Of a stretch of 64,000 nucleotides of DNA, positions 36,101-54,198 are shown piece by piece. How positions within the stretch are numbered: the stretch's first letter is position 1; each line of letters opens with the position of its first letter. The notes under the pieces were generated by a model. It had not been told where the DNA came from, ran no database searches, and saw only the letters and a list, made by a program, of their open reading frames with translations. Position numbers and translations under genes: made by a program. This DNA comes from Clytia hemisphaerica (lineage: Eukaryota; Cnidaria; Hydrozoa; Leptothecata; Clytiidae): assembly GCA_902728285.1 (NCBI GenBank), contig CACVBU010001205.1, forward strand, positions 1,357,309 through 1,421,308, in the 5' to 3' direction.

Positions 36101-37195
36101 GAACATCCTAAATTTTTGAAGCATTCGGGTGTTCTTAGTTTTTTGAGCTTTAAGACTAAAAATGTTCTTAACATGTTAGTTCTTAATTTCACCATTTCGT
36201 GAATATTTTTGACCATTTTCCTAAGAAATTGGCCATTTTTAGAGTCTGTAGAAATGTTCTTAACTTGTTCTTAACATTTTGGCCATCAAAGCCTTAAGTT
36301 CTGATATATTTTGTTCTTATTTAAAAAAACGTGCATTGGGATTACTTATAACTGCTCAACAAAACACGAAAGTTAGGATCTTTTTTACCAAAGTTAAGGG
36401 TATCTGTTTCCACAAAAAAAGTCATAACCCATTCACGAAAGATCAGGTAGCTCAAGTGATGGTTGTGATTCAAGTCCAGTCATACCCATACATAATAATA
36501 ACACACTTTTAAAAGCGATCAACATTCTTGGGAAGATTTTCTTAATGGAGAATTATGAATTGACTGAATATTAATTTGTATTGTGCAATGCCATGTTTGT
36601 ATAGTCAAGTTTTGAAAATTCCAGAAAAACAAACAAGAAATTGGATATTTGGTGATAGATTTTTTAATGACATCAGTTTTTAAATTGTTTCTGTCCCTTA
36701 CTATTTATACTTGATTCTCAGTTAACTGTACTACATATTAATTTCGGTGAGTTTTTTATTTTCAAAGTAGTTTAGTATAATAGTTTTGGTCAAGCCTTTA
36801 ACTTTGTTTTTTATGTTATGTTATTACCATTTTGTTTTCAGGTCACTCTCTACCACTTACTGAAGCTGTTCTCCAACCCTCTACTGGCAAATCAACCCAT
36901 CGTTGGAACACAAGGTCAACTAGTATCTGAATATTACGATGAAATCATTTTCCAAGACCCAAGCGTCTTTCTTTATAAGCAATTAACGGCTGGTAAAACC
37001 CTACCTTGTAAGAAAAATGAGACGGATTGGAGAGCCAAAGAAACAAAAACTCTGATTTCTATGAAACACGCCAAGAAAAGAGTTGGCGAGGAAATTTCTC
37101 AAATGAACGAACGATTAAAGAAACAAAAGAATGCCATACAGAAAATTAAAGAAGAAATCACGAAAATTGAGAAACAGCAAGAAGCGAAAACTTGA
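24178..37195 (+). CDS. YEATS4: YEATS4 (GAS41), histone acyl-lysine reader
   Basis: Three exons (24178-24363, 35515-35652, 36842-37195), all joined in phase 0, give 225 residues, about the human length. The YEATS domain covers about residues 15-135, with [23 protein letters not shown] and [16 protein letters not shown]. The acyl-lysine pocket residues H68, S70, Y71, W90 and F93 are all present. The C-terminus (about 170-225) is a charged coiled coil as in GAS41, which mediates dimerisation and contacts. The family protein is a shared subunit of the TIP60/p400 and SRCAP chromatin complexes and helps deposit H2A.Z. Intron 1 is 11.15 kb and contains the whole GGH gene on the other strand plus many mobile elements. 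A hairpin element starts only 8 bp past the exon 2 donor. Confidence 0.96.
24809..25544. mobile_element. TACCGGGTGCGCCAC hairpin element (L1)
   Basis: Arms of about 200 bp pair: the left begins TACCGGGTGCGCCACAAAAA and the right ends TTTTTGTGGCGCACCCGGTA. The arms continue through a TAAATTTGATTCTTTAGATC / GATCTCATTAACCGAATTTA region. It lies in YEATS4 intron 1 and has no transposase frame. Relatives are at 32387-33738, 60511-61000 and 61509-62350. Confidence 0.85.
26086..27504 (-). CDS. GGH: Gamma-glutamyl hydrolase (GGH), nested in YEATS4 intron 1
   Basis: Two exons are certain: 26782-27414 and 26086-26357 (minus strand, phase-1 junction). They carry [51 protein letters not shown] with the nucleophile Cys, YGTQWHPEK with the catalytic His and Glu, and the typical end SPVYTG...FEQCYMFD. 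The family is a lysosomal or secreted class I glutamine-amidotransferase-like peptidase that trims polyglutamate from folates. A third exon ending at 27504 fits in phase: its frame runs from about 27606 and could use ATG 27520-27518, giving MKTD before [10 protein letters not shown]. None of these starts encodes a clear signal peptide, unlike known GGH. A possible first exon (28329-28359) starts [10 protein letters not shown]. The 5' end is therefore open; 27504 is only the donor edge of the extra exon. Confidence 0.93.
26539..26741. mobile_element. MITE in the last GGH intron
   Basis: TAGACCTTAAAATAAATTAT and GTTACGAACATCACTTGCCT on the left are mirrored by AGGCAAGTGATGTTCGTGAC and TAATTTTTGAAAAGGTCTA on the right. 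The arms are about 45 bp in a roughly 200-bp element, and TA at both ends suggests a TA target. Confidence 0.8.
27505..28359 (-). other. Possible 5' exons of the GGH transcript
   Basis: On the minus strand a frame from about 27606 to 27504 ([11 protein letters not shown]...KVGPGKTQ) has a donor G|GTAGAT that splices in phase to the sure GGH exon. Its acceptor is unclear, because an in-frame stop lies just upstream. A short exon 28359-28329 (ATG, then [10 protein letters not shown]) has a strong donor GTAAGT in phase 1, which would fit an acceptor at ...ATCGAG near 27588. I do not recognise the encoded segment. Between the two lies a repeated GACAAGGCTAGTCGGA-type segment (27866, 28090). Confidence 0.3.
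28806..28972. mobile_element. TTATAAGAACA hairpin family, copy 1
   Basis: CTTTCTTATAAGAACAATC on the left is mirrored by GGTTCTTATAAAAAAAAGTG on the right, with AAGAACA repeats inside. It is the same family as 36083-36335, 40887-41130 and 49165-49402. Confidence 0.65.
29381..29637. mobile_element. CCATACAGGGGGTGTACGAAC hairpin element
   Basis: CCATACAGGGGGTGTACGAA on the left is mirrored by TTCGTCCACTTCCCTGTATGG on the right. The interior includes CCCCCTTGGAAA-type segments. A partial relative lies at 58420-58615 (GTTGGACGAAGTAAAAT, AACCCCCTGGAAATTTC). Confidence 0.75.
30223..30400. mobile_element. MITE with TATAGTTGACGCTCTCTAAT ends
   Basis: The left end TATAGTTGACGCTCTCTAAT and right end ATTAGAGAGCGTCAACTGTA pair over about 25 bp. 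TA termini and GAGCGTC-rich inner repeats suggest a small TA-target element in YEATS4 intron 1. Confidence 0.8.
30401..32386. other. Intronic stretch without further features
   Basis: This is the part of YEATS4 intron 1 between two hairpin elements. It is AT-rich, with several unremarkable open frames (for example 30900-31127) lacking motifs or splice context. I see nothing to annotate. Confidence 0.4.
32387..33738. mobile_element. Nested-hairpin TACCGGGTGG element (L2)
   Basis: The outer ends TACCGGGTGGACCCACGAAA and TTTCGTGGGTCACCCGGTA pair, as do the next ~100 bp (GGCCGAACAAATGTCCCAAA / TTTGGGACATTTGTTCGGCC). Inside lie two separate hairpins. One spans about 32510-32945, around CACTTTTCGGAAAGTGTAAA and its mirror. 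The other spans about 32937-33625, around GCACTTGTTATACATTTTTG and its mirror. The second hairpin's left arm recurs at 60640-61000. Confidence 0.85.
33840..34770 (+). repeat. Tandem array, five units of 184-193 bp
   Basis: The anchor GGGTTTGAAAAATC occurs at 33875, 34062, 34255, 34441 and 34625. Each unit includes AAGGAACGGTCGCC, AAATTACGACAAAGTCC, CATTTTCAGCCATAACACTG, ACACAGGAATTGTGTTT and ACTGAATTCTCATAGTGATA. The first and last units are the most diverged. The array lies within YEATS4 intron 1. Confidence 0.85.
35660..35907. mobile_element. MITE abutting the YEATS4 exon 2 donor
   Basis: The left end AATACACCTTTTTCTGGTTA, with AACGTCACCAAAGTCACC further in, pairs with the right end, whose reverse complement begins AATACACCTTTTTACGAAGT. 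Pairing extends about 85 bp, through GAGTAAACAAGCCATCCCAT and TTGGCTAAAAGCGAAAAC. It begins only 8 bp downstream of the splice donor at 35653. Confidence 0.85.
36083..36335. mobile_element. TTATAAGAACA hairpin family, copy 2
   Basis: TACACGTTTTTTTATAAGAA on the left is mirrored by TTCTTATTTAAAAAAACGTG on the right. TGTTCTTAAC repeats occur inside. It lies in YEATS4 intron 2. Confidence 0.8.
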
Positions 37196-38662
37196 AGTTG
37201 GCTTTCTCGTTAATTATGTTCATACTATTTTAATCTCATAGTACTCGCCCAATTTGCAGAATCAATTTGAAATTCAAATTGCAAAATCCAATTTAGATAT
37301 TTGCACTGGCTTCAGATGCCGCGTACAAAGGTAGAAAGTCTCCACTTAAGGTCGAGACTCAATCATTTTTTAACTAGAAAAAGCTTTTACTTTCTTCAGT
37401 CGGCCATTGGGGGATTCTATATTGATTATTAGTAATGATTATACAGTTTTTAAAAGATACTTGAATATTATTTATTTCCCATAAAGTCTATTTCGCTGAT
37501 CTCATTTTTTCCGTTATCGCTTAGAAAAACATGTGCATTTTAATGACCCACAAGATAAATCAACTCTTTCACTATACTACTGTAATCAAAGATTCGAAGT
37601 CACCTTCAGACTTGCTAAATTATTTTTATTTTTTCCGTGTGACTATTGAAGGGTATTACTTCTTCATTGACGTAATGGTTATAAGAATGATGTAATCTTT
37701 CGGACTAACAAACTAAAAGGTATGCTTTCTTTCATTTATTACCGAGTTTATGTATGTATGTTTTTCTGTGACAGAGACGGTAAGGTTCTAATTTGACTAG
37801 ATCCTGACTACCTGAGGATGACGGTAAATCAGCACTTTTACTGTCCTCGGTTTTGCAGGTCAGAACTGTGGGTTATTCCAAATTGCTTCAGTCACTCTAC
37901 CGTCCTCAAAAGAGTACATACATAAACTCGTTATTGACTCAGGCACGACCAATGAGGAAATTTAAGCGATTTTATAGATAGATTTTACGGACGAAGAGGA
38001 AAATTTCAGCCGACAGAAATCTTCTTTAGGTCCAATTCGTTCGTCATCTATATTTGGTATAACACTCTCTAGCCTCGAGTTTTCAAATCAAATACATTAG
38101 CCTGTAAAACACAAAAACAAGTTACAGTATAACATTTTAGCACCTTGCCAACGAACTTAAAGAATGTACAAACGATAAGTGTAAAAACAGTATCTTCAAA
38201 TAGAAGAAGCTGTGTGAACATTATCATATCTAAATAATTTGATGATAAATACTTTTTACTTGTAAACATTAGTGAAAATTAGAAGAATAAATCTTTGTAA
38301 AGTTTAGCGTGAAAAATATCGTAGTTAGTATAATGTTAGCAACAGATTTAGAAAAAATCACAGAAGTTCAATTTAGTCTACATTAAGAAAAAAGAATCAT
38401 GTTTTATCTATATTCTTCGTAAACAGAGTATCTGGAAAGAAAAATACGCTTTTTTAAATTTTCCAGATGTAGCGTGGTGACAGGGGGCAGGGGGCAGTGC
38501 CCCCCTCCCCAAGATGTTTTCTTTTTATAGTGGGCGCCTAAATCAAAATTTTCTAAAATTACCTCCTCAGTTTGCCCGAATTTTAGTCGACCCACCACGT
38601 TTTTTTGATTCTTTCCAGGTATCCTGTACTTCAAATGATCATTTTGATTTCAGTGACAAAAT
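37196..38662. other. Intergenic region between YEATS4 and the EGF gene
   Basis: Besides the hairpin element 37741-37932, I see a GC-rich patch at 38485-38515 with GGGGGCAGGGGGCAGTGCCC and a polypyrimidine-AG (GATTTCAG) 10 bp before the EGF-gene start codon. That acceptor could mark a 5'UTR intron. No gene found. Confidence 0.4.
37741..37932. mobile_element. CCGAGTTTATGTATG hairpin family, copy 1
   Basis: The left end ACCGAGTTTATGTATGTATG and right end ATACATACATAAACTCGTT are inverted. The interior has two GACGGTAAA / TACCGTCCTC blocks. An opposite-oriented copy is at 39263-39455. Confidence 0.8.
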
Positions 38663-41600
38663 ATGAATTCGAAGATGATACAATGGACATTACGTTGCTT
38701 CATTTTGATCAATATATTATACATACAAAACACACGATGCCAGACTTCAATAATAGTAGTTCCATCTTCCTCTGAATCAGTATCGCTTAACCAAACACAT
38801 ACAACTAGCGGAGAACCAGCATCATCAACAATTCCTATGCAACCTCTACCTCCAATTACATCAACAAGTTCATTACACCAAGCTGTATCGAGTACCATCA
38901 ACGATCCTGATATTGTTACGTCATCATCAGCATCAGTGTCCAATCAAACGTGGCTGTCAACATCGGCATCCAATCAGATTGAACCATCTGAAACGGTAGC
39001 TATGACAACAGCAATAGATAATGGTGGTGGTGTTAAAGCTACTTCAGAAATTACACAGCGTGAGTAAACACCCTCTTTTTATAAAAAATATTATAATAAC
39101 ATTCTGTACTTGTAAGTCTCTAATGTTTTTTGTAAAATTGCTTTTGCAGAAAGCCTACCCGCACTTTTGAGCAAAATAGACTTTTTTCTCCGATTCCTGG
39201 CGAATTCTATCTCATTTTGAGCATTTAGCCCATCCACTGTTGTTCCGTCGGGTCTGTTTCGGTACCGAGTTTATGTATTTGCACTTTTGAGGACGGTAGA
39301 GTGACTGAAGCGATTTGGAAAAACCCGCAATTCCGCCCCGCAAAATCGAGGACGGTAAAAGTGCTGATTTACCGTCGTCCTCAGCTGGTCAGGATCTAAT
39401 CAAATTAGAACCTTACCGTCTCCGTTGCTGAAAAACACACATACATAAACTCGCTGGTGTCTGTGGTGTCAGAGGAACAGGAGTCAGGGAAATAAGCCGT
39501 GTTTGGAACAACACTGTTCAGTGTATTGATGTATTGATTGAGTGCGTTTGTGTTCAAACTGAAATATAAAATTTGAACAAAAAGTAAGTCTAATGAAAAA
39601 TGAAAACAAAACGGCTGACAAAGTACATGAACTACGTCTTATGAAAAAATGAAAACAAAACGGCTGACAAAGTACATGAACTAAGTCTTATGAAAAAATG
39701 AAAACAAAATGGCTGCTGACATGGTACAAGAACTAAGTATCAAAGGAAGTGAATGCGTGTAAATGCTAAGTATAATTGAGAACTAGAAAAATAATTAAGT
39801 ATTAGAAAAATATGTAATGAAAACTTAACTTAAAAGCCACTGTAGAACAAAAGCAAAAAAAAAGGAAAAACTCACCAGCTAGCCTGAGATAAGAAGCTGT
39901 AAGCAGGCAGCAGTACACAGGGTGTGTGTTGATTAACACCAAGTGTATGTAGAATGAAAATAATTGTTAAGTTTGAAAAATGTATTGACTTGACATGTCT
40001 TGACTCCTTGAATGTCTCTGTTGAAGTGAAGTGCAAAACTGAAAGTGGCTATTTATACATTCTGCAGAATAGTATGTATAAAATACAGACCAGAAATAAT
40101 TTATGAAAAACTAATATAAATTATGACAAAAAGTGAATTACAAATTGAATTGACACATATTGATATACAAAACCAAATGTGAATTTAACTGAAAATATGA
40201 AATATATTCAAAATGGTAGAAAATGTGAGTAAAATGCTGACCAAGGAAAGAAACAAACATGATAAAAACAAAAGAAAACACGAAAATGACAAACTGCAAA
40301 ATGGTGAGAGTGCTGTGTGGGACTTGAGACTCAATTAAGGTTAACTGCCTTAACAGTGTCTTCCTTTTCAAATTCACTGGATTCGGTGTGTTCTGTCACT
40401 GGATAAACCGAACCCTTTTTCCGTGTTTGTAATTATGTTTTCATAGATATCTAAAGACCTTGTGGAAGCACTTTGATATATTTTAAATTAAACAAAGAAA
40501 CTTTATTATTAAAAATTTTGTTTTTAAATAAGAGTGATATCGTTTTCTTACTCATCAATTTTAATTCACAAGCGTTTTCATGTTTGATTGACACGGATGT
40601 GGAGCAAAATTCGTTAGAAAGAGGAAAAAGAAAACTTTTTTTGCTTATGTCAGCACAATATTAACAATAGGGAGACACTGTCCTGATATGAAATATGTGT
40701 CTGATGTTAAACGGAACACTTATGTAAGAATAAAAATTTTAACTAAACATCTGCTTCTGTACTGTGAAATTCATTAAATTTTCTATTATTATCTTCATCA
40801 TTGATAGCATCCTCGTCATCAGTGCAACCCTCCGTTTTGAATTCATCGCCCGCAGTACCATCCATGTCTGATCACGGTATAATTTTACATACAATCTTTT
40901 TTTAACATACAAATCTTTCGAAGCCTTCGGATGTTCTTAACTTTTTGGGTTTAAGCCTAAAAATTTTCTTTATATTTTCTTCATTTTGTGACCATTTTGA
41001 CCCATTTTCCTAAAAAATTCTGGTGTTTTCGAGTCCGCAAAGCCTTAACATGTTCTTAACCTGTTCTTAGCATTTTGGCCATCGAAGCTTTATGTTCTTG
41101 TATAGTTTTTTCTTATAAAAAAACGTGTAAACAGTTAAATACCCGATTTGATTTCTGAACACAATAGACTAGCTCAAGGTTTTAAAAAACTATTATGACG
41201 CAGTCTAGATTTTCTTGGCTCTATTAGATGGTCTTCCACCTTCGTGTGTTTTTTAAATTTTGTCGATTTTTATTCGTAGACTTATTATTAATTTCGCCTT
41301 AGCGAAAGTATTACAATAGGCATGGTGCGGCGATATCGGAAGAAAATTTTGAAAACGAAAGTACTTGATACGGTGGACGAACTCACTAAAATCAATTTAC
41401 AAATTACACGCTCGTATAACCACGGAAGGTTTTCTTTGGATTACGTCATTATATCTTTGTGTCTTTAGCTTCACAGTTTTGATTTTTCTTTATTTTCTTA
41501 TAAGCATATACTTTATAAGAATCAAATCAATAACTCTTGTAAAGCGGTGAAATACCTTTCGGTAATAAGTTCTTACAAAGTAAACAAGGGATGGGGCACA

Positions 41601-44600
41601 ATATGAGCATATTTATTTTTCTTATAAGCATTTACTTTATAAGAATCAAATCAACAACTCTTGATAGACGGTGATATACCTTCCGGTAATTAGTTCTTAC
41701 AAAGTAAACAAGGGATGGTGCAAAATATGAGCATATTTATTTTTGTTATAAGCATTTACTTTATAAGAATCAAATCAATAACTCTTGATAGACGGTGATA
41801 TACCTTTCGGTAATTAGTTTTTACAAAGTAAACAAGGGACGGCGCACAATATGAGCATATTTATTTTTGTTATAAGCATTTACTTTATAAGAATCAAATC
41901 AATAACTCTTGATAGACGGTGATATACCTTTCGGTAATTAGTTCTTACAAGGTAAACAAGGATTGGGGTACAATATGAGCATATCTATTTTTGTTATAAG
42001 CATTTACTTTATAAGAATCAAATCAATAACTCTTGATAGACGGTGATATACCTTTCGGTAATTAGTTCTTACAAAGTAAACAAGGGACGGCGCACAATAT
42101 GAGCATATTTATTTTTCTTATAAGCATATACTTTATAAGAATCAAATCAATAACTCTTGATAGACGGTGATATACCTTTCGGTAATTAGTTCTTACAAAG
42201 TAAACAAGGGACGGCGCACAATATGAGCATATTCAGGGGGGGGCACGCAGTTACTACAAGACATGATGTGTAGTAAGTGCTTTTTCAACACTTTTTTTCA
42301 GGACCACCACCCTTTGCAGTTATTACACCTTGGTAGTAACTGTTTTCAGAAAAGATTTCCAGGTACCACCCCTGTTTTTGAGTGATATCATCAAAAACAT
42401 CCTCGAAATTACCCTAAATTGCGATTATTTTTCAACCTAAAGCCATTTTTGTGCTAGATTTTCTTTTAATTTTAATTTATTTGGTTAACAGCTGTTGAGA
42501 ACATTCTAATGATAATTAGGGAAAGCATAATTTCAAAGTTGGGTCTGAGAAAAATTTCAAATTTTTTTTCGTCCATTTATAACAAAAATATTTTTTTTAA
42601 CAAAGAATTTTTTCACAAAAAATTCATTTTTTGTGAAAAATTTTGAAAGTTCTTTAAAAAGAATTAAAATATAAGCACTTACTACACCAAAAGTGCTAGC
42701 TTTAGTTTTTGGCACCACCCCCAAACAGCAGTTACTACACTGTGTAGTAACTGTTTTCATAACTTCTGAATACAGTACCACCACGGTAGTAAGTGTCATA
42801 CTGTCTTGTAGTAACTGCGTGCCCCCCCCTGGCATATTTATTTTTCTTATAAGCATTTACTTTATAAGAATCAAATCAATAACTCTTGATAAACGGTGAT
42901 ATACCTTTCGGTAATTAGTTCTTACAAGGTAAACAAGGATTGGGGTACAATTTGAGCATATCTATTTTTGTTATAAGCATTTACTTTATAAGAATCAAAT
43001 CAATAACACTTGATAGACGGTGATATACCTTCCGGTAATTAGTTCTTACAAAGTAAACAAGGGACGGCGCACAATATGAGCATATTTATTTTTCTTATAA
43101 GCATTTACTTTATAAGAATCAAATCAATAACTCTTGATAAACGGTGATATACCTTTCGGTAATTAGTTCTTACAAGGTAAAAAAGGATTGGGGTACAATT
43201 TGAGCATATCTATTTTTGTTATAAGCATTTACTTTATAAGAATCAAATCAATAACACTTGATAGACGGTGATATACCTTCCGGGTAATTAGTTCTTACAA
43301 AGTAAACAAGGGACGGCGCACAATATGAGCATATTTATTTTTCTTATAAGCATTTACTTTATAAGAATCAAATCAATAACTCTTGATAGATGGTGATATA
43401 CGGTACTTAGTTCTTACAAAGTAAACAAGGGATGGCGTGCAATAAGAGCATATCAATTTTTTATAAGCATATACTTTATGAGAATTTTTAAAAATTAATC
43501 AGCAATTGTTCTTAAATTGGTCTTATTTTTTTAGCGATTTTAAGCCTCGTTGTTCTTGTTGTAAAATTGTTTCATCAAGGCTCGATGTAAAGTAGATTTC
43601 AGATTAGCTTCATCTACTTCTTGTTTTTCCCATGTAGTTCAAACTCTAGGCGAAATTTTCGACTTCAAGTCGTCTTGTTTTTGTTTCAATGCCTGATTAG
43701 CGTTGTCAAATACTGTCATAACTAGTAAGGGCCCTCTAAGTTTTACTGTTTTGGTACTCTAGGTTTAGCAATTCAATGTTATGGAAGCCTGCTACATCGT
43801 TTATTTTATTTTTTGTAGTGCCACCGTTGATTTCAAGTGTTGACCATTCAACAACATTGTCAACTTCCAGTCAAGGTATATCTTTCCCACTTTTAGTTTT
43901 CCCTCTCATATTATTAATTTAGCTATTAAAAATTGTGATTTGTTCTACGAAATCCCCCTGTCTGAATGAGCAGTAATACCCTGTGCGAATACACAAAGCT
44001 CTCTGATATCTTTTTTATGTATTCCAGTCCTTTCACAAAGTCTTGCGCCAGCAGCGTCATCACCAATCATGGAATCGTCAAGCCCTGTCAACATTATGAC
44101 TACAATGGAACCTAATCCCAAAGGTTTGTTTACATTAAGCAATTTTATACAGATTTTTTAGTCTGAAATAAGTTTGAAAGAAAAATATCAAGGATGAGCA
44201 GAAAATTTTGAGAAACAATGAAGGTTAAAAACAGTGCTTTATTAGAGTTTATGAACCTCTAAACGGTATAGCGGTTTTTAACAATTCCTTGTGAAAACCA
44301 CATAGTGATGAACTTAATTTAACTTCTTGTATAACAAAACCCCGTGTCACAGACCCGCTGGGACACCAGTTCCACTGGAAAATTTGTCAAAAATTTCCCC
44401 CGGTTGGAACATACCCTAGAATTTCAGCCCCACTGTGAAATTGACTTCGATTTTATCCCTCCCCTCATGAAACTCAATGCCTAAAAATTGCACTCTAAAA
44501 CCCATCCCTACCGGACTTTCTAACCTTCGAACAATAGAATTTTTATCCCCATTGGGATTTCGATAGAAATTTCATCCTCACTGAGGGAAAAAGTCCTTCG

Positions 44601-47600
44601 GGGCTGTGAGGCTTAAGTGACAAGTGAATAGGTCGGAAAAATTCGCAATTCGCCAGATTAAAAAGGATCCTTGAATAAATCATATAATTGATTTTTTTTT
44701 TGATTGAATTATGTCTAGATTTTCGATAACTCTTTAGTTATGATGTGGTAGTCAGGGTCCTTTTGACAAAAATACTTAAGAGCTCCAGAGATCTTTGTGG
44801 TGTTGTTCCTTGAGTCAATTGAAAAGTCCAAAGAGTTCAAATGATCAGTATCCATCAATGACATCGCAAAAAATAAGGAATCGAAGCTTTACAACCAAAA
44901 TTTTCTTTCCAGCTGCACCAAAACATTGTAATGATGTCATCGGGTCATATTGTGAAAATGGTGGCGTTTGTTTCAATCAAACTGGAACCGAAACTAAACC
45001 TGTTTGCTCGTAAGTTTGAATTTATTTTCTATTTTCGTCTTTTTTTATGATTGTGGTTACTTAGTTTATTGGTATCCTCGGCAGTATTTTCAACAACCTT
45101 TATTGTTAAAAAATTCGTCGGCAAAGAAATTTTTTGAAAAAAGAGAAAAATAATTATAAAAGAGCCAACATTTCTGCGCTGGCTTTGCTTCCAATTTTGC
45201 CTTTATATGAAGTGCCGTAGCATGAACGGTGTCTGTAGAAATCCCTTGTAGAGATAGTGATCTCGAGCCGGTCACGGACGTGAGGGAATGGAATAGATTT
45301 CAATGAAGTTTGTCTGATTTTTTTAGATGCATAGATGAATATTATGGAGAAAAATGTGATAAGAAGATCGTACCAAAATGTAAGTTTGAAGGAATCTCTG
45401 ACGCATTCTTTGATTTATTTGTTATGTAGATCATTCGTAGAGGATATTTTGGGAAGTTTGTTATTAATCTTTTAACTTTCTGCTTACAAGGTTAGCGTGA
45501 ATTCGCAAATGTTTTTTTACGTAGATACTGGAGTATTGGGTTTTTACAGAAAAAGTCTGTGACAGACATGGCTGATACCGATTATTGTAACAGTTCTAAG
45601 ATTCTATAACAAGTTCCTTGAGGTGAGCTGTTTGTACGCTTAGCGTGGAGTGAACATTTATCGGTGCAAAAAGGTCCGTCGATGTCCTTCTGGTATATAG
45701 TAAAAACTCGGTAAACCTTATTCTTATTGTCTTAAGATTCTATAACATCGAAGCAAGTACCTCGAGATGATATAATAGAAACTCGGTGAACCTTATTTCT
45801 GGCACACCCGGTACACTAATTAAAAAGATAATTCCTGAAAATTCATTGTAGGTGCTAAAAACATCAGATTTCGTCTAAAATCTTGAGTCAAGCAAAATTC
45901 AAATTAAACTTTTTGTTTTCCCAATTTTTATTGCACATATCACTTATTGGAAAAATCTTGATAACGTTTCTCTTTCACTTGCGATAAAATTATGACGCAA
46001 ACTTAGAAAAAAAGTTTTCATTGAGAAAATAACAGCGGGCGACTCGTTCACTCGGACGTGTTAAGTATATTCGGAAAAGAGGCCCGAAACAACTGGTTCA
46101 AAGCCTAAAATACCTCGATTTCGCCCTGTACAATAAGAACCGGATAAAACTAACTTGAGGACGAAGGTACTAAAAAATCAGATTGACCGAGCCTTTGTTG
46201 GTTTATTGGTTCTTACTAAAAATGGGCTATCTCTTTTATGTCGGTCCTTTATCATTGAGTCAAATCAATAGATATTGTGTCGTTCATTTCCACCCCTTAA
46301 CTTCTCTCCTTTATCTTTTTATTTCTCATTATGTCCGATTATGTTCCCCTACCTTGGGAAGTGTAACCATCGAAAGAGGAGCTTTCGGAACGACTCTGAC
46401 GACCTTACTCTTAGGTTCCAAATAAACGCCCCCCCCCGCTTGTTAATTTTTCGAAAATTTTCCAACCCCCCCGGACCTTATTAGGACCCCCCCGTTTATT
46501 AATCTCTAAGAATATTTTCAGCTGTCAAAGAGAAGGCCCCTTATTTTGCTCTAAATAGCCTGATTTTAGCCTCTTTTTACCTTATTTTTGGGTTTCAGAA
46601 GAACAATTTCCAACCCCCCAGCAATTAGGTCCCCCCCGTTTATTAAAATCTAGAAAATCTTCCAACCCCCCCCCCCCCGTTTATTTGGAACCTAAGAGTA
46701 CTTACTTATACCAGTCATAAGAACCGCATATTTTCTTCGTGCAAGTCCTGAAGCCAACAACTGAAAAGTAATGAATAGTAATTGAAGTGATTACCTACTG
46801 TTTACGACTATGGCTTTTAAATTTACATTTAATGTTTCCTGGAAGTCTTTCCTGTTTCAGTGATGTATCAAGTATTTTGATAAAATATTTAAATAAACTG
46901 TTCTCCTGGCTAGTTTCTTACATAATCTTTTAAACATTTACCATTATAGTCAGATATGGAATGCCTTAAGTTTTTTGGAAACTAATTTGGTGGGGGTAGT
47001 TTTACTTTTCTTATCAAAGAAATTAGGAGAAAATTTTTGAAATTATGAAAAGTAATTAAATTTGGCGAGTTACCTTTTTTTTCATTTTTGGGAATTTTTA
47101 CAGAACTCGCTAAAATTAGTTTTCTTAGGATGAAGCTTTAATACTTTTTGATGAATCAACTAAATCAAATTCAACCCCTCTACCGCAATTATAGTTGAGG
47201 ATTTTTATTCACTTCCGAGTTTTTCTGACTGGTCAAGGTCGAAATTATGCAATGTAAGTAAGTTGAATGATGATTCGTCAAATATCATTTACATAATTGC
47301 TATTTACAATCCTCTTTAATCTATCACCACTTGTGGTATTAAGTGAGAGATTCGCAATTGCGACCAAGAAGACTTTCGATTCTTCCCTATTTCAAACTGG
47401 CATTGCCAGAGGGAGTCTTTGTACATTAAAACGTCTTGCAGCTGGAAAAGTTGTGTTTATTTTCAAAAAATGGCTCTAGGTAGAACTAAGTTCTTTTTTC
47501 TTAATTGAGAAAGAAAATTGGAAACAACGCTAAGTTCATTTGATTTATGAAAATTAAAATATGAAAAGTTAAATTTTTATTTGATAATCTCATCATTTTT

Positions 47601-50600
47601 GTCTCAGTTCTCAAACATAGCTTTGTGTTTTCGGAATGTCCATTACATGAAGTTGAATATCCTCAACCTCGTTTTCATGTTGTGTTGTATTATTATTCAA
47701 GTCACTTGTTTCCGGTGGTTGATTTTCCAAAACTCTCGCATGCGGTGTTCGAATACCAAGCCTCAACTTACTCAAAGTTCGTTGCCGTAACTTTATACTC
47801 TTCATTTTTTCGGTACCGTTAGAATCACCACCATCCAGGTGCAATATCTTACGGAAACATTTTTTAAACTCGTCATTGTAAATGTAGTAAATGACGCAAT
47901 TGAAGAATGAGTTTGAATAAACGAGAACAGAGATCACCATTATGAATGATTGAGTCACAAGTTCTCCATCGTAGATGCTGAAAAAACCACCCAAGATTGA
48001 GGGTATCCAACAACAATAGAATACAATGATCAATAAACAGATCATGCGCGTCATACGTCTCTCACGTGATTTCAATGTTTTCATCTGTGAGGTGGAGAGC
48101 GCTCTCCTTCCCTGCTTTTTTATCTCATTAATTTGGTGACTTGCTACACGATAGATTTTGTAATACAAAACACCAAAGACGACCAAAGGTACAAGATCAC
48201 TAAAACACATCATATATAAATAGTCTTGCTTCAACATTGTAGCGTATTTGCAGAGATGATCTTGTTCGGCACGGTAAGCGCTCGGAATTATAGCTAACTT
48301 AGAGAAAATGGGTAGAAAAGAAAACATAATAACAAATGTCCATAATAAAGAGACAACGATAATGCTTCGTTTTGGTGTTACGATTTCATCATAATGTAGA
48401 GGTGACTTGACGTATATGAATCGGTCTATTAGTATAATCATCAGATTAAGTGAAGATGCAGAGAGGTTCAAAATGTTCACTGAAACGGAGAGCTGACACC
48501 ATTTTAAAGTTCTCGTCCAATCAGCGTAAAAGATTTCGTTCAGCCGTAACGGTATCAAAATACAACCTACAAAAAGATCTGCAATGGAGAGTGAAAAGAT
48601 GAAGATTTTGGTGGCATGTTTAACTTTTTTGATCCTCCGCAGAGCCAAAATAACGAAAATGTTACCAACAGTTATGAGGAATGATAGAGTAAGGAAAACA
48701 ACTGCATGTAGAAACGCGATTTCTTCCTTGAATTCGGAATATCGGTTTTCGGTAGGTTTGTCCGACATTGTTGTGGAGATTTTTGTTCGATTTTGTCTTC
48801 AAAGCTCAAGGACTGTTATATCATTGCTAAAAAAAATTTCTCCTGGCAATTCCCTACTCTCCAATCTCTTCCCCTCAATATTTGATCCGAATTTTGTTTT
48901 TTATCTTTCTTGCCGCAATGTTTGGCTTTTTTATGTCCTCCAAACCATTTTCTTCTGTTCAAGGTTTGGTCCTATCAATTCCAAGGAGGTTGCAAAATAT
49001 TATTTCTTTTCCTTCGAAAGTTCCTTGATTGAAATCTCTATAAATAAAATGTAATTAAACGAATAAATAGCTTGATATTATTTATCTCAGTTTCTTTCAT
49101 TTACTAATTTCATTTCGTCTTTTGTTCTGTTGGTTATCTTCCATTTCATTTTATCAATGTACGATACACGTTTTTTATAAGAACAAGCAATATAAAATGT
49201 TAAGAACAAGAACATTTTAAGGTTTGGTGAACTGGGTGGGTACCCTAAAAAACACCTAATTTCTTAATAAAATGGACAAAAATACTAAAAAAATGGTGGA
49301 AATAAGAACATGTTAAGAACATTTTTAGGCTTGAAACTTAAAAGTTAAGAAGAACTGAAGGTTTCAAAAATTTTGGGTGTTCTTATAAAAAAAACATGTA
49401 TGTTACCTTAGGACCCCTATCTTTTTGTATTTTTAGAAACAAAATGAGATCAAAAAGAAAAGTTGATTAGCATTGAATTGATGATTTTCCACCAATTACG
49501 TCTATTCTATATGATGAAATCAAAACTTATCAAAAATGACCTGCTCCTCTAAATGTATACGCCTACGGAATTAGTTTTTACCTCTTTCGTCGTCTGAGTC
49601 AAATATGAAATATTTCTATGACCGATGTTATTAGGAGATTCAAAATTTTTTGTAATCCAGCCCCCGTCTTTGTATGATATTGTACAAGGAATTAGGGGGT
49701 TTGAATACTGAAGTTTTGATGTCTCCACCTCCAAGACAGCAAAGTGAATCTCCATTCCCAATCCTTTTAGTTTTTTATTATTCAACAGCACCTTTTGCGA
49801 AGCTTTAAACCTTCTTTTAAAAAAAAGAAGTTTGTATTTAGCCTAGGAATGGCTATCCTGATAAAATTCTTCTCCAAATTTCAAGGCGAGTCTTTAAATT
49901 TATTAGAAGAGTTTGATCAAAATAATAAAAAAGTTCCCAAAGGACCGAACTAGAGAGCTCTATAAAAAGGTTCAAATGCTACACTCATTTTGTTTTATAA
50001 GCATACGGTAAATTTCGGTTGAAGCTCACTATGCTTAAGTAAAGCTCAATTTTGAGCCTCGACTATGCTTAACCCTATGCTTGGTAAAAAAATTATGAAG
50101 GGGGAGGTTTCTTTGGCTGAGCCTCAAGGTATGCTTAGCATATCTTAATTTTTCTGGAAATTTGAGCTTCAGTATGCTTATAAACGTTATGCTTATAAAA
50201 CGAAATGAGTGTATTTTATCATGGTCCTTTAAAAAACATATAAAATCTTAAACCAAAAACGAAGAGATTTTTATCCATAATTTATTTGGCTAGTACATAG
50301 GATCACCATTTAATTTCTTATTTATGTCAATGTCAACAGAGACAAAATCCTCTTAAAAGATCCTAAATAAATGGCTGTCCAGGTTCGACATTAAATGCGG
50401 TTCTTCTTAAACTTAGCATGATGTCTCAATTTATGATATAGTGAGATGTGACTGCTGTGCGGACGTTGAGAACGATTGTGAAAATCGATTTGAAGAAGTC
50501 AATTTTAAGGATTTCAGGTTACTGCGCTCCACTCTTTCCCCAAATTTTCCAAAAATAGGCACCCTACGAGGGACTGATTTTTCTATTTTGGTGTTTTTGC

Positions 50601-53600
50601 GACCCTACCTGGGACTCGTGGAGGTTAAAAAAGATACCCTGACCAGCGGAGCATCCCCGTAACTTATCTTGCCCTAGTACTCCCCCCCCCCCGGATGAAA
50701 ATCTGCTGAAAATGCAAAATTACCGAATATATTGAGATATAAACTAAGCTAACCGCTCATGAAAATTGTCCAATGAAACCCCTTCCTAAATTATGTGCCA
50801 GTTCTGTTTTAACTTATTTCAAAGTTGCTGAGATTAATTTGAGAATCCCGAAGGGGCTAAATTTGAAATTTTTGATGGGAAATTACTTGCACGTTTTTGC
50901 TTTGTTTTTAAGAAACACACTTTGAGGCTGATTGGTAAAACTAGTTTCTTAAAAAAACAACGTGTATTTCCCATCCAAATACCTTAAGGGAAGAAATTTT
51001 GGCGGAAAGAGAATTTGGCGGATTTGGCGGATTTGACTGAAACCAAATTAAGTTCCCGCCAAAATTTCTTTTTTCCATCATCCGCCAAATCAAATTCCGG
51101 CCAAATTAAACATTTTGAAAATATGATCTCTTTTAAGGTGTTTTTGCTATTTTTTCGCTGTTTTCACGCCATCTTAAAGGTTAAATTTTTAAGCGACCGC
51201 CAAATTAAATTCCCGCCAAATTTAGTTTTTTCGTCCATCCGCCAAATTAAATTCCCTCTGAAAAAACTTTTTTGGCCATCTGCCAAATTAAATTCCCGCC
51301 AAAATTTCTTCCTTTAAGGTAGTGTGGTTTTAACACAAACGCAAGATTGAAATTAAAACCAATCGCCATATCTCGAAAAATGTGCAGCTTAAAAACAAAG
51401 AAAGGCTAGATTCAATCAGTCATTTTGAAAACGGTGCAAATCTCGTGGCTTCACTTTTTATAGCTTGAGAAAGGTTGAAGATTTCCATCTACAATATCAT
51501 GGTTGAAATATATTGAGAATTCCGGTTATTTTAACGTTTTTCAAGATTTAAAGCTCCGGTGAGAAAGTCGATTTTGGGCTATCTCTTTAATTTAATCGAA
51601 TATTTAAATTCGGGAGGGGTTGGCTGACTTCCAGGCTATATTCTGAGCCTTTTTGGACTATTTTTTAACTTTTGGATCCTAAGGTCCTAAGTCGTAAGTC
51701 TAGCGTTAAAACTCAGAGTTAAAAACTCTTCCTTCGAACCTTCTTTAGAGCACTTACAAATCGATTGTGATTACAAAACTTCCTGGGGAATTTCCCTTTT
51801 TTCTCAAATATTATGACCTTGATTGTAGCCCTGAACTTATCGCGCAGCACTATCCCAATTTTTGCGACTTTGGCGCGTTTGATTGATGAGCGAGCTTTTG
51901 TATTGTTAGTCGTAAGTGCAATACTACACAAAATCTCTTCGTGGACAAATCTTAATATATTTCCTCTCTTGTTTTTCATTGTAGTGTACATGCAGCTGAC
52001 GTATGCATTGGGAGGAACTACCGGCTTCCTTTTAATTGTGGTTATCTGTCTCGTTTGTTGTCGATGTCAGAAAAGAAAAACTGGGAAAGGGTAAGACGAC
52101 TTGACACATCGTCAATTTAGATTTCACAGTGGAACCTCTAATTAGCGGACACCATCGGGGAAAGGGGTTAGTGTCCGCTAATTAGAAGTGTCCGCCTTTT
52201 AGAAACTTTTGATCTCGCAGCTCCAATTTTGAAATTAGGCCATCCCAGGGTGTCGAAAATACAAAATTGGGGTCTAAAGTACTTATCTGCAGACACTAGG
52301 CCATAGAAGAGCTCGAGTGACTGGCAAGAGGTTAAATCGAGGTGGTGGGTACGGACTTGAAGTAATAGTGATTTTCTTTGGCCCACCTAAATTCGCTGAA
52401 TGGATCAAGGGAAAACTGGAAATTTGTAGAAATAATTTGAAAAATAAGACTAATACTCTCGGGTACCTAATAGCCGGGGGGGTTGGAATAAGCGGGGGGT
52501 TGGAAAAAATCTCAAAACTTAATAAGCGGGGGGGTTGGAATAAAAATGTCCTGGGTGGAAAATCTTTGAAAAGGAGGCTAATACAGCTAAATTAGGACAA
52601 AAAAGGGAACTTTCAAAAACATTTTCCCAAAAATTAATAAGCGGGGGGGGGTTGGAATAAGAATGTCCTGGGTGGAAAATTTTCGAAAAATTAATTAGCG
52701 GGGGGGGACGGCTATTAAGTACCCGAGTAAGTGCTTGAAATAAAAATGTCAAAAAATTTTTTCAAATTTTGGACGTTTGTGACCCGTTTGATATTCAATG
52801 TCCGCTAATTGGAGAGCTAAAATAGGGGTTTTAGCCATTTTGTGCGAAAAAAATTTGTCCACTAATCAGAGGGTCCGCTAATTGAGTGTCCGCCTTTTAG
52901 AAACTTTTTTATGAGGATTTGACTAGGAAACAGCCGGGGGAAATGAAATTGTCCGCTAATCAGAGGTGTCCGCCTTTTAGAGTGTCCGTTAATTAGAGGT
53001 TTTACTGTACTTATTTTTATTAATTTTCTGCATTTCAAGCCTTTGTTTCTTTTCGCACGCTTGCTTTCATAAGAACAAGCGAAATAAGGCTGAGCTTAAG
53101 ACTGGTAAATTGTTCTAAAAAATAGGGCTATTGTTCTTGGTTCTAAAGGACCCTAAAGAATGAATTCTCATGCAATTCTCATACAATACAGTTTTTAACC
53201 CGGTTAGTATGTCTCCTTTAGGATTTTTTATACCGGAACAGTCACATCGGATCTGTGAATAAAAGATAATTTGCACTAGAACTTGTGTTAAAGGTTTTAT
53301 TTTTACATAAGTTTTCCCGTTCCATATCAGACGTTTTCATATCAGGACAGTGTTTGCCTATTGTTTTATTGTGCTTGTCATCCGTGTCAATTCAATGGGA
53401 AAAAATTGATGAGCTAGCAAACGATTTCACTCTTTAAAAACAAAACCTTTAATCACTCCTTTCTTCCTTTATTTTTCAGGGAACTTCCATTTTCTGAGGA
53501 ATTGGACAGTTTCAGTGTTGGCAGCAAACGGGCAAGCAAATTGTTTCCTTCCAATGGTAGCAGCAGTAATGGCAAGAACAGTGTTAGTGTCATGTCTTTT

Positions 53601-53633
53601 GAGAACAATGGAATCGATATGTATGGTGATTAA
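38663..53633 (+). CDS. Membrane-anchored mucin-stalk EGF protein (ErbB-ligand-like architecture)
   Basis: Eight exons join in phase (38663-39059, 40808-40876, 43819-43875, 44028-44123, 44913-45009, 45327-45379, 51985-52090, 53480-53633) to give about 342 residues. In order: a signal peptide (about 1-26, hydrophobic CFILINILYI); a Ser/Thr/Pro-rich, probably O-glycosylated stalk (27-206); one EGF domain with cysteines at 212, 220, 226, 238, 240 and 249; one transmembrane helix (about 264-282, ending CLVCCRC); and a 60-residue Ser-rich tail. The cysteine spacing 7-5-11-1-8 with GEKC at the end matches the ErbB-ligand pattern closely. The EGF domain is split by an intron between Cys4 and Cys5, and it sits within 15 residues of the membrane. 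The protein is likely shed or juxtacrine. The receptor is unknown, and a non-signalling mucin remains possible. A GPCR gene lies inside intron 6 on the other strand. Confidence 0.85.
39263..39455. mobile_element. CCGAGTTTATGTATG hairpin family, copy 2
   Basis: TACCGAGTTTATGTATTTGC on the left and ACATACATAAACTCGCTGG on the right are inverted. The internal order (GAGGACGGTAGAGTGACTGA first) is reversed relative to 37741-37932. It lies in intron 1 of the EGF gene. Confidence 0.8.
39592..39740 (+). repeat. 49-bp tandem repeat, three units
   Basis: The unit ATGAAAAAATGAAAACAAAA + CGGCTGACAAAGTACATGAA + CTAAGTCTT occurs three times in direct succession, with the last unit diverged. It lies in intron 1 of the EGF gene. 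Confidence 0.8.
40887..41130. mobile_element. TTATAAGAACA hairpin family, copy 3
   Basis: The right end TTTTCTTATAAAAAAACGTG is intact, while the left end (TACATACAATCTTTTTTTAA) is worn. The inner TGTTCTTAAC repeats and TTTTGGCCATCGAAGC match 36083-36335. It starts about 10 bp after the EGF-gene exon 2 donor. Confidence 0.7.
41483..43470 (+). repeat. 124-bp satellite array interrupted by a hAT-like element
   Basis: The anchor GAGCAT recurs at 41605, 41729, 41853, 41977, 42101 and 42225, exactly 124 bp apart. After the inserted element it recurs at 42954, 43078, 43202, 43327 and 43446. Each unit contains CTTATAAGCATTTACTTTAT, AAGAATCAAATCAATAACTC, GATATACCTTTCGGTAATTA and GTTCTTACAAAGTAAACAAG. 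Units alternate between a GGACGGCGCACAATATGAG form and a GGATTGGGGTACAATTTGAG form, giving a 248-bp higher-order repeat on the right side. The array lies in intron 2 of the EGF gene. Confidence 0.92.
42234..42831. mobile_element. hAT-like MITE inside the satellite (CAGGGGGGGGCAC ends)
   Basis: Perfect ~30-bp terminal repeats: CAGGGGGGGGCACGCAGTTA with CTACAAGACA on the left, mirrored on the right. Internal TAGTAACTG / CAGTTACTACA motifs recur. The host motif GCATATT is duplicated on both sides (42227-42233 and 42832-42838), showing insertion into a pre-existing satellite unit. The CAGGG/CCCTG termini suggest hAT, but the duplication I can read is 7 bp, not 8. Confidence 0.88.
44338..44612. 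mobile_element. CACCCCCTTCTCACAGACC hairpin family, copy 2
   Basis: AACCCCGTGTCACAGACCCG on the left and TCCTTCGGGGCTGTGAGG on the right are worn inverted ends. The interior carries CCCACTG and CCCCATTGGGATTT blocks as in the other copies. It lies in intron 4 of the EGF gene. Confidence 0.6.
46408..46700. mobile_element. C-run/G-run hairpin element with ACTCTTAGGTTCCAAATAAA ends
   Basis: The left end ACTCTTAGGTTCCAAATAAA plus a C-run is matched by a C-run plus TTTATTTGGAACCTAAGAGT on the right. Between them, runs of 6-12 C are spaced every 30-60 bp beside CCGTTTATTAA and TTTTCCAACCCC. It resembles 52455-52728 and 16948-17176 in layout. Confidence 0.75.
47611..48768 (-). CDS. Class A (rhodopsin-type) GPCR, single exon, nested in EGF-gene intron 6
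   Basis: An uninterrupted 385-residue frame has seven hydrophobic helices. Class A marks are GN36 (TM1), D64 in SIADLF (TM2), C91 and C173 (likely TM3-ECL2 disulfide), DRF at 115-117 in place of DRY, CWIP at 253-256 (TM6) and NCVIY at 290-294. In NCVIY a Cys replaces the usual Pro of NPxxY. A short helix 8 (FKKCFRKIL) precedes an Asn/Gln-rich tail with N-glycosylation-like NNNTT, which is intracellular here. It resembles amine/adenosine-like invertebrate receptors, but I cannot name the ligand; TM3 lacks an obvious amine-binding Asp. It lies antisense between exons 6 and 7 of the EGF gene. Confidence 0.93.
   Translation of the reverse strand: MSDKPTENRYSEFKEEIAFLHAVVFLTLSFLITVGNIFVILALRRIKKVKHATKIFIFSLSIADLFVGCILIPLRLNEIFYADWTRTLKWCQLSVSVNILNLSASSLNLMIILIDRFIYVKSPLHYDEIVTPKRSIIVVSLLWTFVIMFSFLPIFSKLAIIPSAYRAEQDHLCKYATMLKQDYLYMMCFSDLVPLVVFGVLYYKIYRVASHQINEIKKQGRRALSTSQMKTLKSRERRMTRMICLLIIVFYCCWIPSILGGFFSIYDGELVTQSFIMVISVLVYSNSFFNCVIYYIYNDEFKKCFRKILHLDGGDSNGTEKMKSIKLRQRTLSKLRLGIRTPHARVLENQPPETSDLNNNTTQHENEVEDIQLHVMDIPKTQSYV
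49165..49402. mobile_element. TTATAAGAACA hairpin family, copy 4
   Basis: TACACGTTTTTTATAAGAAC on the left is mirrored by GTTCTTATAAAAAAAACATG on the right. The interior has TTAAGAACA repeats. It lies about 400 bp upstream of the GPCR start. Confidence 0.8.
49980..50213. mobile_element. MITE with TACACTCATTTTGTTTTATA ends
   Basis: TACACTCATTTTGTTTTATA + AGCAT on the left is mirrored by ATGCT + TATAAAACGAAATGAGTGTA on the right, with TATGCTTA repeats inside. TA termini. It lies in intron 6 of the EGF gene. Confidence 0.85.
50980..51323. repeat. CCGCCAAATTAAATTCCCGCC array with inverted ends
   Basis: CCTTAAGGGAAGAAATTTTG on the left is mirrored by CAAAATTTCTTCCTTTAAGG on the right. Between them CCGCCAAATTAAATTCCCGC recurs about five times. 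An 85-bp hairpin with TGCACGTTTTTG...AACAACGTGTA ends (50888-50972) sits immediately to the left. Confidence 0.7.
51498..51830 (+). repeat. Interspersed ~350-bp repeat, copy B
   Basis: Follows copy A (317-670) in order: GAAATATATTGAGAATT, CTTCCAGGCTATATTC, TCCTAAGTCGTAAGTCT, GTTAAAACTCAGAGTT. It is diverged and on the same strand, ending about 150 bp before EGF-gene exon 7. Confidence 0.6.
52127..53008. mobile_element. pogo/Tc1-type MITE with CAGTGGAACCTCTAATTAGC ends
   Basis: The left end CAGTGGAACCTCTAATTAGC is matched by the right end TTAATTAGAGGTTTTACTG. GTGTCCGCTAATT / GTGTCCGCCTTTTAGA blocks repeat near both ends. The CAGTNNAACCTC start is typical of pogo-like Tc1/mariner elements. A G-run element (52455-52728) is nested inside. 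It lies in intron 7 of the EGF gene. Confidence 0.8.
52455..52728. mobile_element. G-run hairpin element, intact copy
   Basis: CTCGGGTACCTAATAGCCG on the left is mirrored by CGGCTATTAAGTACCCGAG on the right. Runs of 6-10 G occur at intervals with TTAATAAGCGGGG and GGTTGGAATAA. It sits inside the pogo-type MITE and is therefore younger. Confidence 0.8.
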
Positions 53634-53773
53634 TAAGCCTTCTCATAAGTTACGTCATGAACAACACTTGCCTTGTTTTGAAAATCTCACTTTAGATTTT
53701 GAGCCATACTTTTCTAGATAGAAAGCTTCTTTTCACCGTTCGTGAGTTGGGTTGGGATTAAATAACACACGTA

Positions 53774-53873
53774 CCCAGCTGGTACATGACGTGTTGTTTT
53801 AACGTTCACTTGACGTTATATAGACGTTGTGAACATTAAATAAACGTTGAAACAACGTTGTGTGCCAGCTGGT
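53774..53873. mobile_element. 100-bp CCAGCTGG-ended element with AACGTT palindromes
   Basis: The left end CCCAGCTGGTACATGACGTG is partly mirrored by AACAACGTTGTGTGCCAGCTGG. AACGTT or GACGTT occurs five times within about 70 bp. It lies about 140 bp after the EGF-gene stop codon, probably in its 3'UTR or flank. Confidence 0.5.
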
Positions 53874-54198
53874 TTAACGTCGCGTATGAGGAAAGTCATG
53901 CCCAGGACGTAACTTATGAAAAGCCATATTCTTCTCGATGGCTAGCGGTATGATGCTAAAGTTGAAAATCGAATTCAACTTGGTGTGATGAAGACAATTT
54001 AACCAAAATAGAAATTCCTTCGCTACCACCACTCTTTATTTAAGATATACATAAGTAAACTCTCCAATACGACGGTTTTTGTATCGGTATGTCACTGGAA
54101 ATGCCCGGAAAGGTTTGATTTTGAGTGTCTAGTCAATGATTTTAGCTTTGAACTTCTTACTGGAGAAACCTCGTTTTATGATAATGATTGATAACCAT

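Follow-up and report, generated by a model that had tools for sequence, protein, structure and literature searches.

The locus and its gene model

The window, i.e. the whole stretch of 64,000 nucleotides from Clytia hemisphaerica analysed here, holds on its plus strand a gene of seven GT-AG exons between 38663 and 53633, whose splicing gives an uninterrupted frame of 319 codons followed by a stop. Several other genes and elements share the window with it. A frame at 5346-5993 (-) encodes a TRAF-type MATH domain, and a YEATS4 gene occupies 24178-37195 (+), with a first intron of about 11 kb as read by eye. A gamma-glutamyl hydrolase lies at 26086-27490 (-), where one large exon carries at least 208 enzyme residues and the frame 26086-26382 resembles by eye the C-terminal end of the enzyme. 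The first intron of the seven-exon gene contains about 11 tandem repeats of 124 bp (41483-43461); a MITE-like element with inverted-repeat ends of about 30 bases, starting CAGGGGGGGGCACGCAGTTACTAC, breaks this array at about 42234-42830. Intron 5 contains, in antisense orientation, a single-exon rhodopsin-family GPCR at 47611-48798 (-); its nearest relatives are amine receptors, and by eye the Asp at what we take to be the amine-binding position of helix 3 is replaced by Asn. The features of the gene itself are as follows.

38619..38662, +, possible 5' UTR segment that follows a strong acceptor (99.6th percentile of AGs)
38663..39059, +, coding exon 1: begins with the ATG and encodes the signal peptide (about aa 1-26) and the beginning of the stalk; ends in phase 1; donor at the 96th percentile
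43819..43875, +, coding exon 2: continues the stalk; symmetric, with phase 1 at both ends; codon score matched by 0.4% of open intronic segments
44028..44123, +, coding exon 3: further stalk; again symmetric, with phase 1 at both ends; codon score matched by 2.4%
44913..45009, +, coding exon 4: EGF module from Cys1 to Cys4; ends in phase 2 between Cys4 and Cys5; weak codon support (14%)
45327..45379, +, coding exon 5: EGF module from Cys5 to Cys6 (CIDEYYGEKC) and linker; codon score matched by 2.3%
51985..52090, +, coding exon 6: encodes the transmembrane helix with its basic stop-transfer; KD19 2.44; no support from codon usage
53480..53633, +, coding exon 7: the larger part of the cytoplasmic tail, then the stop codon; acceptor at the 99.7th percentile; no support from codon usage
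53757..53762, +, possible poly(A) signal ATTAAA, with a second one at 53835

The splice sites were scored with a generic PWM and ranked against all plus-strand GTs or AGs in the window, and all 12 of them fall between the 91.9th and the 99.7th percentile. As for the coding potential, 400,000 tries yielded no open intronic segment of the length of exon 1. By codon usage exons 2, 3 and 5 are supported and exon 4 weakly so, and exons 6 and 7 are unsupported, with 50% and 51% of open intronic segments scoring as high. The original prediction counted eight exons; seven coding exons suffice for the open frame, and any eighth would probably be non-coding and 5'. In fact, 44 bases before the ATG lies the strongest acceptor of its immediate upstream region, setting an exon start at 38619, which makes a non-coding first exon likely, and 38619..38662 is thus a possible candidate for the eighth exon, or for a trans-splice site. 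Exon 6 also has an alternative in-frame acceptor, by which the exon would be 51910-52090 (+) and the transmembrane exon would gain 25 residues.

We then enumerated further exons. With strict cut-offs none is detected, and the same cut-offs would also drop most of the sites on which the model relies. Once the cut-offs are relaxed far enough to let these sites in, six open exons with phase-1 entry are found in 45400-54000; two of them share the donor 52090 and carry the helix of the gene, while another two are the last exon in a different frame, which is hydrophobic too. At the lowered cut-offs the first intron yields no additional symmetric exon. Concerning the EGF module, 200 Markov-1 simulations give an expectation per 64 kb of 0.55 first halves and 0.26 second halves, each taken separately (maxima 4 and 3). 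The window holds one first and one second half, in the right order, with matching phases and an intron of 317 bases between them.

The predicted protein and the class of its EGF module

The product is a predicted type I membrane protein of 319 residues, and the parts named in the original prediction, i.e. a signal peptide, a Ser/Thr-rich stalk, one EGF domain with spacing 7-5-11-1-8 ending in GEKC, a transmembrane helix and a short tail, are all read in it. The stalk has 162 residues, including 37 Ser and 21 Thr (S+T 35.8%), with no repeated 5-mer or 6-mer. Outside the tail there are three N-glycosylation sequons, one of them within the single EGF module. The intron said to fall between Cys4 and Cys5 is present in the gene model, in phase 2, and splits the codon TC/A after its second base, exon 4 ending in TGC TC and exon 5 starting with A TGC. 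Cys6 is residue 226 and the helix begins at aa 238-241, i.e. 11-14 residues further on, which agrees with the predicted distance of less than 15 residues. The best 19-residue helix stretch is aa 241-259 with a mean hydropathy of 2.44; beyond it lie a basic stop and about 60 residues of tail.

In Pfam, the protein gives an EGF_2 match of E 0.0022, which is below the cut-off of that model. Searched at E up to 1, with filters that drop most matches above E of about 0.1, it shows no SEA, NIDO, AMOP or VWD match, and a follistatin-domain match is likewise missing from the Pfam result. Two further Pfam matches, Orthoreo_P10 and EphA2_TM, both on the transmembrane segment, do not reach their cut-offs and were rejected as composition effects. 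Rfam gave nothing at gathering cut-offs. A rhomboid motif is described as a small P1 with hydrophobic P4 and P2' (PMC2941825); by eye no full motif of this kind is seen in the protein, and Gly/Thr helix breakers are present.

To classify the module, we compared it with the PDB and with two profiles. In the PDB search with the module alone, two Notch-1 chains come on top (E 8e-5 and 1e-4) by summing four weak repeats, each below 13 bits. The best single-domain matches are neuregulin-1 (22.6 bits), an EGF/TGFa chimera, mouse EGF and epigen, all at 21-23 bits, with a similarity that is weak even for the best of them (E about 0.001); the best one-module Notch construct, at 17.4 bits, exceeds TGFa (15.7) and amphiregulin (14.7). 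With the whole protein, 28 chains are retrieved at E up to 10, and ranks 1-15 consist of ErbB ligands or chimeras of them together with an ant venom peptide at rank 7, known as an ErbB mimic. An antibody chain follows at rank 16 and the first Notch module at rank 17, with TGFa at 20 and amphiregulin at 23. As a control, the meprin-alpha module was run against the PDB and ranked Notch first.

In the two-profile test, the module scores +19.2 bits towards the ligands. On leaving one sequence out at a time, all 12 ligands are positive (+8.8 to +49.5) and all 11 non-ligands negative (-47.6 to -0.5), with Spitz and uPA nearest to zero at +8.8 and -0.5, respectively. The pairwise scores are led by NRG4, NRG3, NRG1b, epigen and NRG1a, and give a less clear picture: only 5 of the 12 ligands exceed every non-ligand, EGF and a Notch repeat score equally, and several non-ligands outscore HB-EGF and epiregulin. 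Tomoregulins and neuroglycan C also score as ligands in the profile test, so the profile is no proof of ErbB binding. On the whole, the profile and the PDB ranking support the view that the module sides, by its sequence, with ErbB ligands and not with matrix, Notch or clotting repeats. The check proposed at the outset, ErbB ligands against general EGF repeats, thus favoured the ligands, and the placement among matrix-type repeats that was to count against a ligand was not obtained. An EGF module of about 40 residues is reported to carry little phylogenetic signal (PMC4914847).

Next we consider the residues and the criteria by which ligands are recognized. A splice site between Cys4 and Cys5 and closeness to the membrane are given as the marks of ErbB ligands (the Stein-Staros criteria, PMC1618406), and our gene model has both. 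According to the same source these criteria also select MUC3, 4, 12 and 17, both meprins and IMPG2, and hence they cannot separate a ligand from a membrane mucin. The model also agrees with the Barberan criteria for an EGF-type ligand (PMC4914847), being full length, with a single EGF motif and an architecture in line with that of the known ligands. The residue before Cys6 is stated to be Arg in all verified ligands except the tomoregulins (PMC1618406), and here it is Lys (GEKC), not Arg. Eight positions are described as conserved in EGFR ligands, namely 13, 15, 16, 18, 22, 37, 39 and 41 (seven ligands; PMC3554757); by a cysteine alignment made by eye, five of the eight are kept (Tyr13, Asn16, Gly18, Tyr37, Gly39), and Glu15, Asn22 and Lys41 deviate. 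In human EGF any other residue at Arg41 is reported to leave less than 1% of the affinity (PMC3554757), a result for the human receptor which therefore need not hold for a distant one.

Receptor and paralogue search in the genome

The genome searched is the window's own assembly (417,433,876 bases in 951 contigs), and ectodomain profiles were searched exon by exon. Three matches of Recep_L_domain and one of Furin-like are found, all within one 4-kb stretch of a single contig (C232). Downstream on the same strand are a transmembrane exon and a kinase exon, the frames being read by eye. Against the PDB, the kinase exon matches insulin receptors first (E 1.8e-47), then IGF1R and, far behind, ALK, with no ErbB among the best 60 of 69 matches. 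By sequence, this sole Recep_L/Furin locus is identified as the insulin receptor. Its recovery exon by exon serves as the sole positive control for the Recep_L and Furin searches. The domain IV model GF_recep_IV, run without a positive control, has no match in the genome. Thus, as far as the Recep_L, Furin-like and GF_recep_IV profiles reach, no ErbB-type ectodomain is found, and to this extent the searches agree with one half of what the original prediction had named as refuting it, a genome with no ErbB-like receptor.

A search of the genome with the EGF module itself returned 24 places with E values of 10 or less. The gene's own exons account for three of these, as they must by construction, and none of the remaining 21 has an E below 0.009, so that among the places scored no close paralogue is seen. 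The best-looking match of the second half, on contig C145, was read by eye (1 of the 21 places) and rejected, being a multi-EGF protein and not a split-EGF relative.

These results may be compared with earlier reports. According to a 2016 survey, Nematostella and Hydra have neither EGFR nor an EGF ligand, from which the pathway was inferred to be missing there, and Trichoplax has one putative EGF-type ligand and no receptor (PMC4914847). The cnidarian absence is repeated as a reported one in PMC10253995, and in PMC8662651 EGFR is dated to bilaterians instead. Among the papers listed in our literature searches there was no cnidarian ErbB work beyond PMC4914847.

Two other gene families were looked for in the same assembly. 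The poly-gamma-glutamate synthase is reportedly a cnidarian gene gained by transfer. PGA_cap, which is of this synthase type, has 14 matches on five contigs (C643, C216, C419, C939, C787), six of them close together on C419; 6 of the 14 contain an internal stop, and two share one open frame of 393 aa. The eight loci examined have a GC content from 0.344 to 0.400, near that of the window, and the contigs that carry them measure 0.7 to 3.5 Mb, both of which make bacterial contamination improbable. The PGA_cap genes are in keeping with a cnidarian host. In free-living cnidarians, poly-gamma-glutamate is reported to drive nematocyst discharge (PMC5566210). GFP (PF01353), looked for as a cnidarian marker and without a positive control, gave no genome match.

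Interpretation and comparison with known systems

We suggest, at a probability of roughly 0.45, that the gene encodes an orphan ligand-type precursor, i.e. a cell-surface protein displaying or releasing a single EGF module, which would act on a partner distinct from the standard ErbB receptors. The gene anatomy, the class of the module by sequence, and the finding of no Recep_L or Furin match beyond the insulin-receptor locus are shown by the analysis and form its basis. The type I membrane protein would display one ErbB-ligand-type EGF module on its Ser/Thr-rich stalk. From the module class together with the intron we infer that the module most likely descended from an ancestral animal EGF-type ligand. 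The protein, presumably glycosylated, is predicted to act either tethered at the cell surface or after a juxtamembrane cleavage. Since no ErbB receptor is found in the genome by these ectodomain searches, the module would work through some non-standard partner. The earlier idea of an early-branching EGF-family growth factor thus stands in part: the module class, the intron and the membrane placement speak for it, while the missing Arg before Cys6, two deviations among the seven other conserved positions and the lack of any ErbB ectodomain found speak against it.

A non-signalling membrane mucin comes next and is a serious contender. The protein would then be a small membrane mucin or adhesion protein, working as a coat or spacer, and its module and Cys4/Cys5 intron would be ErbB-like by convergence or old exon sharing. 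The S+T content of 35.8% in the stalk, the Lys in place of Arg and the failure to find an ErbB receptor locus all suit such a protein, but mucins usually carry tandem repeats and this stalk has no repeated 5-mer or 6-mer. Besides, Pfam at E up to 1, where most matches above about 0.1 are filtered out, shows none of the domains SEA, NIDO, AMOP and VWD, and the module scores with ErbB ligands while the meprin module does not. On the other side, the same intron at the same position is described in MUC3/4/12/17, the meprins and IMPG2 (PMC1618406), and transmembrane mucin-like genes are reported in sea anemones (PMC9080433).

It is rather doubtful that the protein is a genuine ErbB ligand with a receptor that escaped the search or falls in an assembly gap. 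The module and intron match the ErbB-ligand family, and an exon-wise search of a 951-contig assembly leaves room for such a miss, but the same searches recovered the insulin receptor L domains and furin-like region, and GF_recep_IV had no match, although without a positive control. Moreover, EGFR is reported absent from Nematostella and Hydra (PMC4914847), and replacement of Arg41 in human EGF reportedly brings affinity below 1% (PMC3554757). Least probable, and in our view very improbable, is a wrong gene model in which the EGF exons and the transmembrane and tail exons belong to different transcripts: the 6.6-kb intron with its nested opposite-strand GPCR and the lacking codon-usage support for exons 6-7 would allow it, but the phases fit, the splice-site scores are high, and over 8.6 kb, at the thresholds used, the only other transmembrane-like exons with phase-1 entry are the alternative frame of the last exon.

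Returning to the orphan ligand-type precursor, the protein may represent a signal still made after its receptor was lost, or it may be a surface protein that just resembles a growth factor. A tentative scenario, possible though on balance unlikely, is that the cnidarian lost the ErbB receptor while the ancestral ligand gene survived with its diagnostic intron and came to use a different receptor, the change from Arg to Lys marking the switch. A ligand-class protein with the diagnostic intron, where the receptor is undetected, would imply that a cnidarian has kept the ligand side or put it to new use. The fate of a pathway after the loss of its receptor would thereby become testable in a single-gene case.

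Among the known systems, Trichoplax is likened by description, not by sequence, in having a putative EGF-type ligand with EGFR reported absent (PMC4914847). MUC3/4/12/17, the meprins and IMPG2 share a membrane-proximal EGF module with a Cys4/Cys5 splice site and, in the mucins, a Ser/Thr stalk (PMC1618406); here, in contrast, there is a single EGF module and no SEA, NIDO, AMOP or VWD match. Its module score is ligand-like, unlike that of the meprin-alpha module, the member of this group used in the comparison. Tomoregulins and neuroglycan C have the membrane-proximal module and the same intron (PMC1618406) with ligand-like profile scores; the tomoregulins likewise do without Arg before Cys6 (PMC1618406), with His where we find Lys, and the present protein shows no follistatin-domain match. 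From the ErbB/EGFR ligand precursors (neuregulins, EGF, epigen, TGFa, Spitz) it differs by Lys for Arg41, Glu15 and Asn22 and by the ErbB receptor locus not found. With them it shares the single EGF module, the spacing class, the Cys4/Cys5 intron, the membrane-proximal position, the type I topology, an aromatic residue before Cys2, Gly18, Tyr37 and Gly39, and at position 21 it has Phe, as have NRG1 and NRG3.
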